Source: Flexithrix dorotheae DSM 6795 (GTDB lineage: Bacteria; Bacteroidota; Bacteroidia; Cytophagales; Flammeovirgaceae). Taken from it: a stretch of 64,000 nucleotides of DNA. Made by a program: the position numbers and the translations under genes. Below, piece after piece: positions 21,389 to 50,755 of this stretch (position 1 is the stretch's first letter; each line of letters starts with the position of its first letter). Where the stretch lies: assembly GCF_000379765.1 (NCBI RefSeq), contig NZ_KB903487.1, positions 1 through 64,000 on the forward strand. Reading direction: 5' to 3'. Below the pieces are notes generated by a model that ran no database searches, was not told the origin of the DNA, and was given only the letters and a program-made list of their open reading frames with translations.

Positions 21389-21471
21389 GGGGGGATACCA
21401 AAGCGGCCAACTGGGACGGACTGTAAATCCGTTGACTTACGTCTTCGCAGGTTCGAATCCTGCTCCCCCCA
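21389..21471 (+). tRNA. tRNA-Tyr (anticodon GTA)
   Basis: 83 nt with a long variable arm. Acceptor GGGGGGA pairs with TCCCCCC; anticodon loop CTGTAAA gives GTA; T arm GCAGGTTCGAATCCTGC. No encoded CCA. Confidence 0.95.
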
Positions 21472-21532
21472 CAAGTTAAACTTTGGAATTTTTTTTTAAA
21501 GTTACAATTAGTAACTTTGAGCTATTAAAAAA

Positions 21533-45768: not shown

Positions 45769-47406
45769 ATGAAGTTTAGGTTTTTTGATACGATAAGAGG
45801 AAAAATTATTACAGGCTTTTTTATTTTGGTAATACTCTTTTCTGTAAGTGCAGTATTTAACTACATCATTATTCAAAAATCAGAATCCATCATCAGTGAT
45901 TTATATGATGGAAAAGATCCTTCCTTAAGTTCCTTGAATGAATTTAAATTACTGGTTACCCATTCCAGAGAGCTAACTACCAATTGGGTTTACCTGATTA
46001 AGGATGAGGAAGACAAGGTGGAATTAAGGAAGATTAATAAGGAAGGTTATCCTCTGCTAAAAGGAAAGCTTCAAAAACTTGCTCAGGATTGGGATTCGGA
46101 ATCTCAGGCCTCATTGGATTCTACGTTTGCAAAATATGAGGAAATTCAAGCCATGCAGCTTGAAATAATGACTTCACTATCTGAATTTGAATCGTATGAT
46201 GATCCTCAAATAAAATTTGAAGCTGAAGAAAATCTGGATTTTCATATCCTGCCTTTAAGTAAAAGTCTAGTTGCCGATCTGGAAACATTAATAGACCAAA
46301 AAGTTTTAGAAAAAAACACTGCCAGAGAAGAACTCCTAACTAATAACTATTATATAACCATTAGTATCATTATTAGTGGATTGGTAATTATGGCCATTTC
46401 TATACTTACCTCTTTACTTACTGCCAACAGGATTACTGTACCGGTGAAAGAGATTCAATTAACTGTAGAAAAGCTTAGTAAAGGTCAATTGGCAGAAAAT
46501 CTAAATTATACATTAAAGGATGAAATAGGAGCCACAATGGAATCTGTAAACCATTTGGTTTCAGGGTTAAAAGAAACTTCAAAATTTGCCAATGAAATTG
46601 GGAAAGGAAATTATGACATGGAATACCATGCATTAAGCGAAGAGGATGAATTGGGAAATTCTTTATTAGCTATGCGTGATAACCTGAAAATGGTTGCTGA
46701 GGAAGATAAGTTTAGAAATTGGGCGAATGAAGGTTATGCGAAATTCGGAGAATTATTAAGAAGTAGTACCGATTCATTTGAAGAATTAGGTCCAAAATTA
46801 ATTTCTGAATTGGTGAAGTATATGGATGCCAATCAGGGAGCATTCTTTATCCTGAATGAAGAAAACCTGGATGATAAACACTTAGAACTGATTGGATGTT
46901 ATGCCTGGAAAAAGCGAAAACACCTTAAAAAGAGAGTAAACTATGGAGAAGGCATTGCTGGTCAGGTTTGGAGAGAAAAGGATACTGTATTTATGACGGA
47001 TGTGCCTGAAGAATTTGTACAAATTACTTCCGGGCTGGGCAAGTCGAATCCAAGATCAATTTTGGTAGTTCCTCTGAAATTTAATGAGGAAATTTATGGG
47101 GTTATCGAAATAGCTTCATTTAAAGTATTTTCCAAACATGATATTGAGTTCATTGAGCGACTTTCTGAAAGTATTGCCTCTACAATATCAAGTATTTCGG
47201 TGAATAAAAGGACAAAGAGTTTATTGGAAGAATCTCAAATTCAGTCAGAAGAATTGAGAATGAAGGACGAGGAAATGAGACAGAATATGGAAGAAATGCA
47301 GGCAACTCAGGAACAGGTTCAAAGAAAAGAAAGGGAATACATGGCAAAAATTGAAAAATTAGAGAAAATGGTAGGCAAACTCCCGGATGAATCTGTAGAA
47401 AGTTAA
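45769..47406 (+). CDS. Membrane sensor with HAMP and GAF domains, no output domain
   Basis: 545 residues. TM1 (IITGFFILVILFSVSAVFNYIII, about 12-34), an extracytoplasmic helical bundle (about 35-190) like a CHASE3/4-helix sensor, TM2 (YYITISIIISGLVIMAISILT, about 194-214), a HAMP domain (about 215-275), a GAF domain (about 325-480, including SRSILVVPLKF-like PRSILVVPLKFNEEIYGVIEIA), and a C-terminal coiled coil. No histidine kinase or MCP signalling domain is present, so it must act through partners. The neighbouring convergent kinase-regulator operon is a candidate. Confidence 0.85.
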   Translation: MKFRFFDTIRGKIITGFFILVILFSVSAVFNYIIIQKSESIISDLYDGKDPSLSSLNEFKLLVTHSRELTTNWVYLIKDEEDKVELRKINKEGYPLLKGKLQKLAQDWDSESQASLDSTFAKYEEIQAMQLEIMTSLSEFESYDDPQIKFEAEENLDFHILPLSKSLVADLETLIDQKVLEKNTAREELLTNNYYITISIIISGLVIMAISILTSLLTANRITVPVKEIQLTVEKLSKGQLAENLNYTLKDEIGATMESVNHLVSGLKETSKFANEIGKGNYDMEYHALSEEDELGNSLLAMRDNLKMVAEEDKFRNWANEGYAKFGELLRSSTDSFEELGPKLISELVKYMDANQGAFFILNEENLDDKHLELIGCYAWKKRKHLKKRVNYGEGIAGQVWREKDTVFMTDVPEEFVQITSGLGKSNPRSILVVPLKFNEEIYGVIEIASFKVFSKHDIEFIERLSESIASTISSISVNKRTKSLLEESQIQSEELRMKDEEMRQNMEEMQATQEQVQRKEREYMAKIEKLEKMVGKLPDESVES

Positions 47407-47423
47407 TTTCCAGTTAATGCTAA

Positions 47424-47466
47424 AAAAAACGGACTACCAAAACTATTTGACAGTCCGTTTTTTTTT
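47424..47466. terminator. Bidirectional terminator between sensor and response-regulator genes
   Basis: AAAACGGACT...AGTCCGTTTT with A-run before and T-run after; works in both orientations between the two convergent units. Confidence 0.85.
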
Positions 47467-47471
47467 ATTTT

Positions 47472-47954
47472 TTACCCTTGTTTCTTTAATATTTCAAATA
47501 ATGTTTCCTGATCAGTAAGAGGAAGATATTTTTGGTAGTCCAACCCAGTTTTTAAAATAAACCTGGTCAGTAATTTCTTTACCGACTTTATCAATTCTTC
47601 CTTATTCCAGGGTTTTTCCAGATATTGATTAATACTGGCTGAATTAATTGCTTCAATTGTATCCTGATGAGTAGCTAATCCGGTGAGTAATATTTTTTGG
47701 GTATTAGGAAATCGCTCATCTTTATTGACATCACTCAGGAAATCAACCCCACTTTTCCCAGGCATTACATGGTCGGAAATAATTAAAGCAACAAAATCCC
47801 CTTCCGAATCAATTTCATCAATAAGTTCTTCTGCTTCTGTAGCCGATTCACATTCTTCGATTATCAGGTCATTTTCGAAAACTGCTAAATCTTTGGCTAT
47901 AGTTGATAAAACTTCTCTTTGGTCGTCAACACAAATTATATACAGCTTTTCCAT
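47472..47954 (-). CDS. Stand-alone response regulator (receiver domain)
   Basis: 160 residues. Receiver domain: acidic pocket CVDDQREVL (Asp10, Asp11), phospho-acceptor Asp61 in IISDHVMPG, Thr in LLTGLA, and Lys114 in YLEKPWNKEE. The remaining 35 residues are too short for a DNA-binding domain, so it most likely signals by protein contact. It is 11 nt downstream of the histidine kinase gene. Confidence 0.92.
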   Translation of the reverse strand: MEKLYIICVDDQREVLSTIAKDLAVFENDLIIEECESATEAEELIDEIDSEGDFVALIISDHVMPGKSGVDFLSDVNKDERFPNTQKILLTGLATHQDTIEAINSASINQYLEKPWNKEELIKSVKKLLTRFILKTGLDYQKYLPLTDQETLFEILKKQG

Positions 47955-47965
47955 TTTCTTTTAAT

Positions 47966-49324
47966 TTAGGAAACAGGTAATTTTATTTTAAATGTTGTTT
48001 TTCCGGGTCGGCTTTCAACCCCAATTTTTCCACTATAATTTTCAACCAACCTCTGCACTATGGCTAACCCTAAACCCAGACCAAAAGATAACCCATCTTT
48101 TTTGGTGGTAAAACTGGGTTGAAATATCTTATCTTTTAAATCATCGGGAATTCCAGGGCCATTGTCTTCAATTATTACATTAATCCACCTACCTTTCATA
48201 GTAGATTTTACCAAAATTGTTGGTGACACGGTATTGCTGTTCAGCATACTTTCACAACCATTTTTGATGATATTAAGCCAAATCTGAACGAGTTCTCCAC
48301 TATTGGCAGAAATAGTTTTTAATTCTCCCAACTCTAGTTTTAGATCAACTCTTCTCAAGATACTTTTTAGTAAGGAAAGTGCCTCCTTAATGGATTCATT
48401 AAGATCAAGATCTTCAGTTTTTCCCACATTGGCTACTCCCAATTGTTTCACAGATTTCACTACATGAACTGCATGATTTGACGCCAAAAGCATATCGTGA
48501 AATGTAGATCCTATTTCCCAATAATAATTCATTCGCTCTGCACCTTCCAAGATCTCTTCCTTAAATGGTAAAAGTTCATCATCGGTTAACCCGGTTTTTG
48601 CCAGTTTTTTCGCCAGGTTATTGTCAAGTGGATATTTGCTTTGTAATTCTTTTTGCCTTTTCCTCACGTCTGAACTGGAAAGGAATTGTCCTTTTTTTAA
48701 TCCGATTTTGAAAAAGGAAAACATTCCTTTAGTATCCTTTTCATTAAGGTATTCAGATATTTCTTCGGAAAGCCATTCTGTTTTTCTTTGAAGTACACCA
48801 ATGGCATTGTTTAATTCATGAGCTAATCCTGCAGCCATTTGGCCAAGTGTTGCCATTTTTTCAGTTTGTAGCAGTTTTTTTAAGGTATTTTCCTTCTCCA
48901 TAGCTACTCTTTGAGCCATGAGCTGTCTTGCAGAAATTTCGCTCACCACAATAGGCATAAAATGCTCTACAAAAGTTCGGCATTCATCATCTTCTACCAC
49001 ATCCTGATGGGAATCAATGAAAGCCAGTTCACTATCTTCTTCTGCCAGTATAGTAGCATAACTCGAAAAAGTTTTTGAAAAAAAGCTATAAACCCCAACA
49101 AACATATCGGTAGTGGACCGAAAAACCTCAAAATTATTTCCTTCCTCATTTGTTAAATGCGCAACTAAACTTCCGCTTAGAATGAGATATAATTTATCAT
49201 TTTTCTCACCCTGTTTCATCAGGACATCCCCCTTTTTCAGGCTTCTGCGCTGTTCAGGGTTTGAAAAGTAGGCCTCCTTTAGCCAGTCTAAATCTACACT
49301 TTGTAAAAAACGTTTACTACTCAC
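47966..49324 (-). CDS. Soluble histidine kinase with N-terminal cNMP-binding domain
   Basis: 452 residues from a GTG start; there is no upstream ATG before a stop. Residues about 10-120 are a cyclic-nucleotide-binding-like domain (LMKQGEKNDKLYLILSGSLVAHL). DHp helix with His169 in MAAGLAHELNNAIGVL, then the ATPase: N-box WLNIIKNGCESML, G1 DNGPGIPDDLK, G2 SFGLGLGLAIVQRLV. No TM segment, so it is cytosolic. It lies 15 nt after the DASS transporter gene and 11 nt before the regulator, in one operon. Confidence 0.92.
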   Translation of the reverse strand: MSSKRFLQSVDLDWLKEAYFSNPEQRRSLKKGDVLMKQGEKNDKLYLILSGSLVAHLTNEEGNNFEVFRSTTDMFVGVYSFFSKTFSSYATILAEEDSELAFIDSHQDVVEDDECRTFVEHFMPIVVSEISARQLMAQRVAMEKENTLKKLLQTEKMATLGQMAAGLAHELNNAIGVLQRKTEWLSEEISEYLNEKDTKGMFSFFKIGLKKGQFLSSSDVRKRQKELQSKYPLDNNLAKKLAKTGLTDDELLPFKEEILEGAERMNYYWEIGSTFHDMLLASNHAVHVVKSVKQLGVANVGKTEDLDLNESIKEALSLLKSILRRVDLKLELGELKTISANSGELVQIWLNIIKNGCESMLNSNTVSPTILVKSTMKGRWINVIIEDNGPGIPDDLKDKIFQPSFTTKKDGLSFGLGLGLAIVQRLVENYSGKIGVESRPGKTTFKIKLPVS

Positions 49325-49339
49325 CTCTATAAATTTTCC

Positions 49340-50755
49340 TTAAAAAAAGTTGATTAGGTTCATAATATACAACATTAAATAGGTAAGTAACACTCCTGAA
49401 AGTCCTACAATTAACCCCACTTTTGTCATTTGATTTGTCTGAATTAGTCCTGTGGCATGGGCCAGCGCATTGGGAGGTGTACTGATAGGCAAAGCCATTC
49501 CCATAGAAGCTGCAAAGGTTACCGCCAGAATAAGCATTTGATTGCCTCCAAAGTCATCAAGACTACTTAGAGATGTGCCAAGAGCAGCAATAATCGGAAG
49601 CAGTAGGTTAGCCGTAGCGGTGTTTGACATAAAATTGGCCATAGTAAGAGCTAATATTGATGCGGCAACCACAATCAATAATGGGGGGAAATTTTCAAAA
49701 GGGATACTTTCCACCGCAGTTAAAGCCAGCCCACTTTTTTCCAGAGCAATACCCAGGGCAATTCCTCCTGAAACCAGCCACAAAACATCCCAACTCAATT
49801 TTTTTAAGTCCTCTTTGTTGATTATACTCAAAGCAGAAAATACGGCCACCGGGATAAGGGCAACCACATATGAATTCATTCCATGGATAAAATCGGTTAA
49901 CCAGAGTAAAATCGTAATGCTGAAAGTAAAGTAGACAATAATCGCCTTTTGAGACTTCAAAAACTTTCCCTTTATATCCAGATTAATTTCTTTGGTTTCA
50001 ATGGGAAACAAAACAGCCAATAAAACCCACGAAAAAAGTAAAAGAATAATCACAAATGGTATCCCAAACCCCATCCATTGGCTGAAAGTTACCAAATCGT
50101 CACCGATAAGATATTTAAGTGCAATAGCATTAGGTGGGGTTCCAATAGGAGTACCAATTCCCCCAATATTTGCTGCAACCGGAATTGCCAATGCAAATGC
50201 TACTTTTCCCTTATCATTTGGTGTAAAAACTGCTAAAACCGGTGTGAGAATAGAAAGCATCATAGCGGTGGTAGCGGTATTACTCATGAACATGGAAAAT
50301 ATAGCTGTAATACTCATCAACCCAAGCATGACCATTTTCGGATTTTTACCAAATGGTTTTAACAACACTCTTGCTAAATTTTGATCAAGTCTGTACTTAG
50401 TGGCTGACATGGCAAGGAAAAAACCGCCCAGAAAAAGCATAATGATAGGAGAAGCAAAAGTTCCCATTATTTCTTTATAGCTCAGATAATTCCCAAAGTT
50501 TTCTCTGTTCCCATGATCCTGGAACAGCACAAAGCTACTTTCTGTGAGCATCATAAGTTCCAGTACAATTATCAAAACTGAAGTAGCATAAATAGGAATG
50601 GGTTCTAATACCCAAAAAAGGGCAGCCAGAAAGAAAATAGCTACCACCCTTTGTTCTATAATGGTAAAATTTTCAAAAGGGAAAACTGATTGGGGTAGTA
50701 TCAGGATTAATAATGGAATTCCTATCGAGATAAGCAGGTTGAGGCTTTTTCTCAT
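49340..50755 (-). CDS. DASS/SLC13-family anion transporter
   Basis: 471 residues, about 11-12 TMs. The two SNT motifs of the family are present: SNTATTAMMLSILTPV and SNTATANLLLPIIAAL, plus PIGTPPNAIALKYL and PISTPPNALAHATG. Members carry Na+/dicarboxylate, sulfate or citrate. It is the first gene of the operon with the histidine kinase and response regulator, suggesting the transporter is either regulated by, or itself a sensor for, the pair. Substrate not inferable. Confidence 0.92.
   Translation of the reverse strand: MRKSLNLLISIGIPLLILILPQSVFPFENFTIIEQRVVAIFFLAALFWVLEPIPIYATSVLIIVLELMMLTESSFVLFQDHGNRENFGNYLSYKEIMGTFASPIIMLFLGGFFLAMSATKYRLDQNLARVLLKPFGKNPKMVMLGLMSITAIFSMFMSNTATTAMMLSILTPVLAVFTPNDKGKVAFALAIPVAANIGGIGTPIGTPPNAIALKYLIGDDLVTFSQWMGFGIPFVIILLLFSWVLLAVLFPIETKEINLDIKGKFLKSQKAIIVYFTFSITILLWLTDFIHGMNSYVVALIPVAVFSALSIINKEDLKKLSWDVLWLVSGGIALGIALEKSGLALTAVESIPFENFPPLLIVVAASILALTMANFMSNTATANLLLPIIAALGTSLSSLDDFGGNQMLILAVTFAASMGMALPISTPPNALAHATGLIQTNQMTKVGLIVGLSGVLLTYLMLYIMNLINFF

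Follow-up and report, generated by a model that had tools for sequence, protein, structure and literature searches.

How does a histidine kinase act when its gene lies between those for an anion transporter and a free-standing receiver, with no recognizable DNA-binding domain in the set? This question is raised by a locus of Flexithrix dorotheae DSM 6795, a Bacteroidota bacterium with a 9.5-Mb genome, at positions 45769-50755 of the stretch analyzed here (the window: 64,000 nucleotides, the first of contig NZ_KB903487.1). Three genes on the minus strand, separated by gaps of 15 nt (transporter-kinase) and 11 nt (kinase-receiver), encode in this order a sodium-coupled anion symporter of the DASS/SLC13 family (49340-50755, 471 aa), a histidine kinase with an N-terminal domain resembling cyclic nucleotide-binding domains (cNBDs; 47966-49324, 452 aa, GTG start) and a stand-alone receiver (47472-47954, 160 aa). 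A membrane protein with HAMP and GAF domains is encoded convergently on the plus strand (45769-47406, 545 aa). Pfam (cut-off E ≤ 0.001) and NCBIfam searches of the window proteins assigned the transporter to Na_sulph_symp (PF00939, E = 3.9e-40, 138.7 bits versus a cut-off of 27) and to the DASS model TIGR00785 (256 bits versus a curated cut-off of 198.6), the kinase to cNMP_binding (PF00027, 5.2e-12) and HATPase_c (5.6e-20), the receiver to Response_reg alone (6.4e-16) and the convergent protein to GAF_2 (1.3e-16) and HAMP (7.6e-9), the part beyond the GAF domain matching no family. None of the four window proteins matched a Pfam DNA-binding domain at this cut-off. Coordinates and domain models thereby agree with an earlier note on this DNA, which had described the operon and its gaps, the convergent sensor lacking an output domain and the absence of DNA-binding domains. 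The same note had proposed that all four genes form one sensory system, in which the transporter or the GAF sensor feeds the kinase and the output passes by protein contact.

The transporter, kinase and receiver genes constitute a real, conserved operon type. We compared 30 kinase loci, namely the window, 17 of 21 loci from GTDB contigs (the remaining four, L044-L047, partial matches at 22-33% identity, were excluded), 11 new loci from one family of the order and one from a phylum-wide sample. The family sample comprised 176 genomes, 19 of which carried the kinase (8 repeats and 11 new loci); phylum-wide, 2 of 395 genomes, window genome included, had it at E ≤ 1e-100, and no further kinase was found in 76 genomes of the family to which genome G454 belongs. 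The loci come from records named Bacteroidota, Calditrichota and KSB1. Most span 15 kb; L092 covers only 5 kb and starts inside its transporter gene, with the upstream neighbor lying outside it. The receiver was the next gene after the kinase in 28 of the 30 loci and the transporter directly preceded the kinase in 25, a recurrence that shows the order transporter-kinase-receiver not to be due to chance. Taking the longest possible starts, transporter and kinase overlapped or lay less than 25 nt apart in 23 of the 25 triads, the exceptions being L027 (125 nt) and L028 (88 nt). Across 390 genomes of the order (that of the window among them), kinase (E ≤ 1e-50) and receiver (E ≤ 1e-35) occurred in the identical four, and there was no sign that the kinase is paired with another regulator. 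Pairwise distances of the three proteins also correlated over the 25 triads (r of 0.74-0.83, calculated without species-tree control). Kinase and receiver are a tight core, and the transporter is its usual, non-obligate partner. Judged on titles and abstract openings of open-licence papers, no DASS-cNBD kinase-receiver operon has been described, and to the extent of that search the operon type is undescribed. One of the contigs (CAKZMZ010000400.1; L028, the same as G002) is titled Thalassobius, but the genome search puts it in the window's family. Its genes are close to those of the window, and the title of this metagenome-assembled genome looks wrong.

The kinase has the H box and the N, G1 and G2 boxes of histidine kinases. 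His169, the phospho-acceptor within GLAHELNN (48818-48820), is invariant in all 30 kinases, as are Asn351, Asn355, Asp387, Gly389 and the GLGLGL stretch, and Asn388 is conserved in 29; the catalytic HATPase_c domain occupies residues 344-451 (47972-48295). Canonical HisKA was not matched at E ≤ 0.001 in Pfam, which we attribute to a split between the two helices of the dimerization and histidine phosphotransfer (DHp) domain. In the predicted model (pLDDT 77.6, pTM 0.41), a long helix runs into the DHp domain, and an insert of about 60 residues (197-257; 48554-48736) forms four short helices that separate the two long DHp helices. A Foldseek search with this model (pTM 0.41) returned kinases in general among the best 50 rows. 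The N-terminal cNMP_binding-like domain (residues 26-105; 49010-49249) contains a degenerate phosphate-binding cassette (residues 75-88, FVGVYSFFS...S; 49061-49102) in the alignment of the 30 kinases. With the register set by equal-length spans (residues 33-103 on 28-98 of CRP), positions 78 and 88 correspond to what we take to be CRP Glu72 and Arg82, the residues presumed to hold the cyclic-nucleotide phosphate. Position 78 is Val, Ala or Ile and position 88 is Ser in every one of the 30 kinases, within a conserved GVYSFFS motif. Canonical sensing of cAMP or cGMP by this domain was rejected, as both the Glu and the Arg of the cassette are missing throughout, and the pocket seems to be kept for something other than canonical binding of either nucleotide.

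The receiver, in turn, retains Asp11, the phospho-acceptor Asp61, Thr91 and Lys114 in 28 of 28 cases; the L031 protein, which contains a masked stretch (X), was kept in these counts and left out of one further alignment. A C-terminal extension (residues 137-160; 47475-47546) is likewise present in all 28, and the window receiver's model (pLDDT 89.8) folds this tail as two helices beyond the receiver fold. Lengths fall within 157-167 aa in 26 of the 28, with L030 at 184 aa (longer start) and L031 at 219 aa (masked stretch). No output domain follows in the 160 residues of the window protein, for which Response_reg is the sole Pfam family, and alignment and length gave no indication of an added domain in the relatives' kinases, receivers or transporters. 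The best 50 Foldseek rows for the receiver model were receivers in general, with HupR at the top. Because the receiver has neither a DNA-binding nor an enzymatic domain and carries only a conserved C-terminal tail, its output would be binding to another protein. Output by protein contact, as the earlier note had suggested, is thus the simplest reading, and any particular target is conjectural.

A second system in the host genome is consistent with this interpretation. At L026 (contig C5 of genome G000, 144000-158000), a cNBD kinase is followed by a fusion of a receiver with a flavoenzyme resembling thioredoxin reductase. Compared with the window proteins, the sister kinase shows 26% identity over 472 positions and the sister receiver 36% over 121 aa; the sister receiver is fused to its flavoenzyme, the fusion containing no Pfam DNA-binding family, whereas the window receiver is free. 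Matches to the fusion of receiver and thioredoxin reductase occurred in 46 of 148 genomes of the order, and the sister kinase stood beside the fusion in 24 of the 30 loci returned (1.5-kb flanks, one locus cut by its contig end). Both branches combine a cNBD kinase with receivers lacking a DNA-binding domain, which supports output at the protein level no further than by analogy.

Which anion the transporter carries is suggested by its motifs and by the genes around the operon. The first SNT motif and both PPN loops are present in all 30 transporters compared (25 from triads and five stand-alone), and the window protein has the complete set of two SNT motifs and two PPN loops, placed as in the NadC-family structure 5ul7 to which it was aligned. 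A flanking gene encodes a phosphoenolpyruvate (PEP) carboxykinase (PEPCK), a PEP carboxylase (PEPC) or a 2-oxoacid oxidoreductase in 11 of the 30 loci, representing 6 of 23 clades by our own grouping on the kinase tree. ATP-type PEPCK flanks five loci (divergent in L031, L032, L093 and L094, on the same strand in L102), GTP-type PEPCK three (L038, L039 and L043) and PEPC one (L029). At L033 and L037, genes for the alpha and beta subunits of a 2-oxoacid:acceptor oxidoreductase, the substrate of which is left ambiguous by the family models, lie directly upstream of the kinase, and transporter and receiver are missing. The two carboxykinase types belong to different Pfam families and occupy the same position, which was either filled twice or replaced in place. 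The four enzyme families were confirmed by Pfam on L032, L038, L029 and L033 and assigned elsewhere by BLAST to these; a partial PEPC-like match in L096 (36% over 113 aa, at the locus end about 7 kb off) was left uncounted. The Pfam scan of flanking genes covered 30 proteins, a part of all flanks, and further returned a glucuronyl esterase, an ABC ATPase, a TonB-type barrel, DUF547, a GntR regulator, a sulfatase, an aminotransferase, an amidohydrolase, transposases and others. As a control, we fetched 20 sister-kinase operons of the order (10-13 kb each); none contained the same enzymes, nor did any match DASS, porin, DUF2490 or node-enzyme references. This difference corresponds to P = 0.0016 by Fisher's test for loci (11/30 versus 0/20) and P = 0.023 for clades (6/23 versus 0/20), with the window genome's own sister operon excluded. 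Binomial P values for 6 of 23 clades range from 2.4e-11 to 4.7e-5 under guessed per-locus rates between 0.25 and 3%, for an enzyme set chosen post hoc.

The next, fourth gene of the operon encodes a Porin_O_P-like protein in 8 of the 25 triads and a DUF2490 protein, which we take to be an outer-membrane barrel, in another 6. Four of the Porin_O_P proteins were scanned with Pfam, two falling just under the cut-off, and the rest are BLAST relatives. The stand-alone transporters of L054, L055 and L056 also adjoin a porin-like gene (L056 by Pfam, L054 and L055 by eye). In L054 and L055, a universal stress protein gene lies on the transporter's other side (L054 by Pfam), an arrangement suggestive of an uptake operon that does without the kinase.

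We favor, at somewhat better than even odds, a carboxylate-uptake operon with its own local two-component system that acts by protein contact. The anion imported by the symporter would most likely be a carboxylate of the tricarboxylic acid cycle, C4 or other, to judge from motifs and neighbors, and in many relatives the symporter would work behind the porin-like protein of the fourth gene. The altered cNBD would read another ligand or the state of a partner, the transporter or the substrate that it brings in being the most economical choice. The kinase would then phosphorylate the co-encoded receiver on Asp61, and the phospho-receiver would bind a protein, which could be the transporter or one of the enzymes at the PEP/oxaloacetate/2-oxoacid node. 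A bolder version, unlikely as it is, would make the system a transceptor in trans with its loop closed without transcription: the loaded or cycling DASS protein would bind the kinase through the altered cNBD or the DHp insert, the kinase would phosphorylate the receiver, and the tail of the phospho-receiver would in turn bind and gate the transporter and adjust the enzymes of the PEP/oxaloacetate node.

Several observations count against the favored reading, beginning with the linkage itself. The kinase stands without a neighboring transporter in five of the 30 loci and without an adjacent receiver in two. Among the five genomes with transporter-less kinase loci, one has a close transporter elsewhere (G771, 66% identity), in two all matches are distant and the last two have no match, so the transporter is not an obligate partner and the idea of an obligate partnership is weakened. 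Similarly, 8 of the 390 genomes of the order contain a member of the transporter subfamily (E ≤ 1e-100), and four of these lack such a kinase. All five transporter-less kinases group with L036 in the midpoint-rooted kinase tree (six members, support 92/88); in the midpoint-rooted transporter tree, the five stand-alone transporters split into a separate group of three and two that join L036. Nor was a motif common to the upstream regions found, the commonest 8-mers occurring in 6 of 20 regions, when shuffled sequences gave maxima of 5.0 on average and 8 at the highest. A Bacteroidetes -7 box is matched at most 50 nt ahead of the transporter start in 13 of 24 upstream regions, that of the window not among them. 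The transporter as a strict, indispensable sensor fits poorly with the five loci and the four genomes.

Kinase and receiver could instead be a conventional sensor of metabolism or redox state inside the cell, its receiver passing the signal to some distant phosphorelay or to a regulator that binds DNA, with the transporter merely co-transcribed. Such a sensor would account for the three loci with a kinase-receiver pair and no transporter (L035, L040 and L103) and for the two in which the kinase, without transporter or receiver, stands beside 2-oxoacid oxidoreductase genes; moreover, the kinase query matches 140 places in the host genome at E ≤ 1e-3, so partners for cross-talk exist. It accords less well with a transporter that comes first in the operon in 25 of 30 loci, mostly with overlaps or short gaps. 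The Pfam-scanned neighbors include one DNA-binding regulator (GntR family, L100) and none that recurs, in a survey that involved no systematic search for phosphotransfer proteins. We regard this explanation as rather unlikely.

The carboxylate assignment, too, meets contrary evidence, and much of it would suit a carrier of an inorganic anion, phosphate or sulfate, with the PEPCK and PEPC neighbors reflecting phosphate or energy state. The best PDB profile match of the window transporter is Pho90 (192 bits, versus 182 for 5ul7 and 175 for VcINDY, 4f35). The second motif, SNT in 23 of the 30 transporters, reads SHT in the other seven, as in Pho90; one locus (L101) flanks a sulfatase; and the neighboring porins belong to Porin_O_P, a family named for phosphate-selective porins. 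Pho90 as aligned, however, reads SNV, SPQN and GFPN at the SNT-1 and PPN places, unlike any of the 30 transporters, two of the four scanned Porin_O_P proteins lie just under the cut-off and the 2-oxoacid oxidoreductase neighbors suit carboxylates better. Sulfate carriers of the DASS family may share the SNT motifs, which leaves sulfate possible as far as the motifs go. Taken together, we consider an inorganic substrate distinctly unlikely.

The metabolic neighbors also have to be read with care. The enzyme set was picked after the loci had been viewed, and the control was scored for those very families. A 21st sister operon, that of the window genome itself, adjoins a convergent ATP-type PEPCK, which turns the control into 1 of 21 when it is included. 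The clades may not be independent, two PEPCK groups lying within one supported group of seven kinases, and no enzyme of the set adjoins the window's own operon.

The convergent HAMP-GAF gene does not belong to the system. That it would be linked to the operon in relatives was a test set beforehand, and it failed: the gene adjoins the operon in the window and in one relative of the same genus, and was not found at the other 28 of the 30 kinase loci, mostly 15 kb in span. It is one of a family in its genome, where the protein has 15 further matches at E ≤ 1e-6. In the eight such proteins that we read, window included, the GAF region is followed by a shared coiled coil, RQNxEE(M/L)xx(T/S)QE. Four stop at the coil (the window protein, with RQNMEEMQATQE, and those of L014, L016 and L018); the other four continue, L017 into PAS, L019 into PAS and SpoIIE (both by Pfam) and L015 and L020 into PAS-like stretches (by eye). 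These paralogs (window and L014-L020) differ in their sensor parts, which comprise HAMP, CHASE3 and Cache, and a coiled coil without a following output domain may itself be a docking module. A perfect inverted repeat read by eye between the convergent gene ends (47422-47465; aaaaaaaacggact...agtccgtttttttt, 14-bp arms and a 16-nt loop) is probably a shared two-way terminator; a terminator scan restricted to loops of up to 8 nt did not list it. A four-part system in which the GAF sensor feeds the kinase, as the earlier note had envisaged, draws on the adjacency in the window and its genus relative and is highly improbable given the 28 other loci, the convergent orientation with the probable terminator in between and the relatives of this GAF and coiled-coil protein elsewhere in the genome. 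The sensor was accordingly rejected as a member and is a bystander to the operon; of the proposed sensory system, the transporter-kinase-receiver part stands. Elsewhere in the window, ARAGORN places a plus-strand tRNA-Tyr and a minus-strand tRNA-Arg that overlaps it at almost identical positions (21389-21486); the tRNA-Arg call is probably spurious.

To our knowledge, the known transporter-linked two-component systems end in a transcription factor. CbrB, the partner of CbrA, is one; DcuR of the DctA-DcuS-DcuR system has a DNA-binding output, and DctA lies outside the DASS family. VcINDY of Vibrio cholerae (4f35) belongs to the same DASS family as the window transporter, and we know of no kinase partner for it. 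In the Escherichia coli DctA-DcuS-DcuR system, too, carboxylate transporter, kinase and receiver are distinct proteins; in the window operon the carboxylate is conjectural, and gene linkage and correlated distances connect the parts, contact between transporter and kinase being conjectural as well. DctA is reported to set the responsive state of DcuS by contact (PMC8307970). DcuS is there described as membrane-bound with a cytosolic PAS domain, whereas the window kinase has a cNBD-like domain; the window receiver, unlike DcuR, has no output domain. CbrA of Pseudomonas unites a transporter and a histidine kinase in one unit that is reported to govern carbon metabolism (PMC13022988); it is a single polypeptide with an SLC5 transporter and a STAC domain, whereas the window has three genes and an SLC13 transporter. 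EpsW of Myxococcus xanthus is reported to be a single-domain receiver acting post-translationally on the membrane protein EpsZ (PMC12802240). It resembles the window receiver in lacking an output domain, and action on a membrane protein would be a further likeness. EpsW serves a chemosensory pathway and a transferase and is not part of a transporter operon. DctA-DcuS and CbrA demonstrate that a kinase can be fed by a transporter, and EpsW-EpsZ that a membrane protein can be the target of a single-domain receiver. All three are distinct from the window system, which would work in the manner of DctA-DcuS or CbrA with other building blocks.

The operon type extends the transporter-linked two-component systems by a member whose substrate, signal and output we infer from its genes. 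One such operon belongs to a named strain, Chryseotalea sanaruensis Ys (L039), and not to a metagenome bin. With no DNA-binding part and, in several lineages, with gluconeogenic and anaplerotic enzymes nearby, the operon type would be a test case for protein-level control of carbon uptake and flux by a two-component system.

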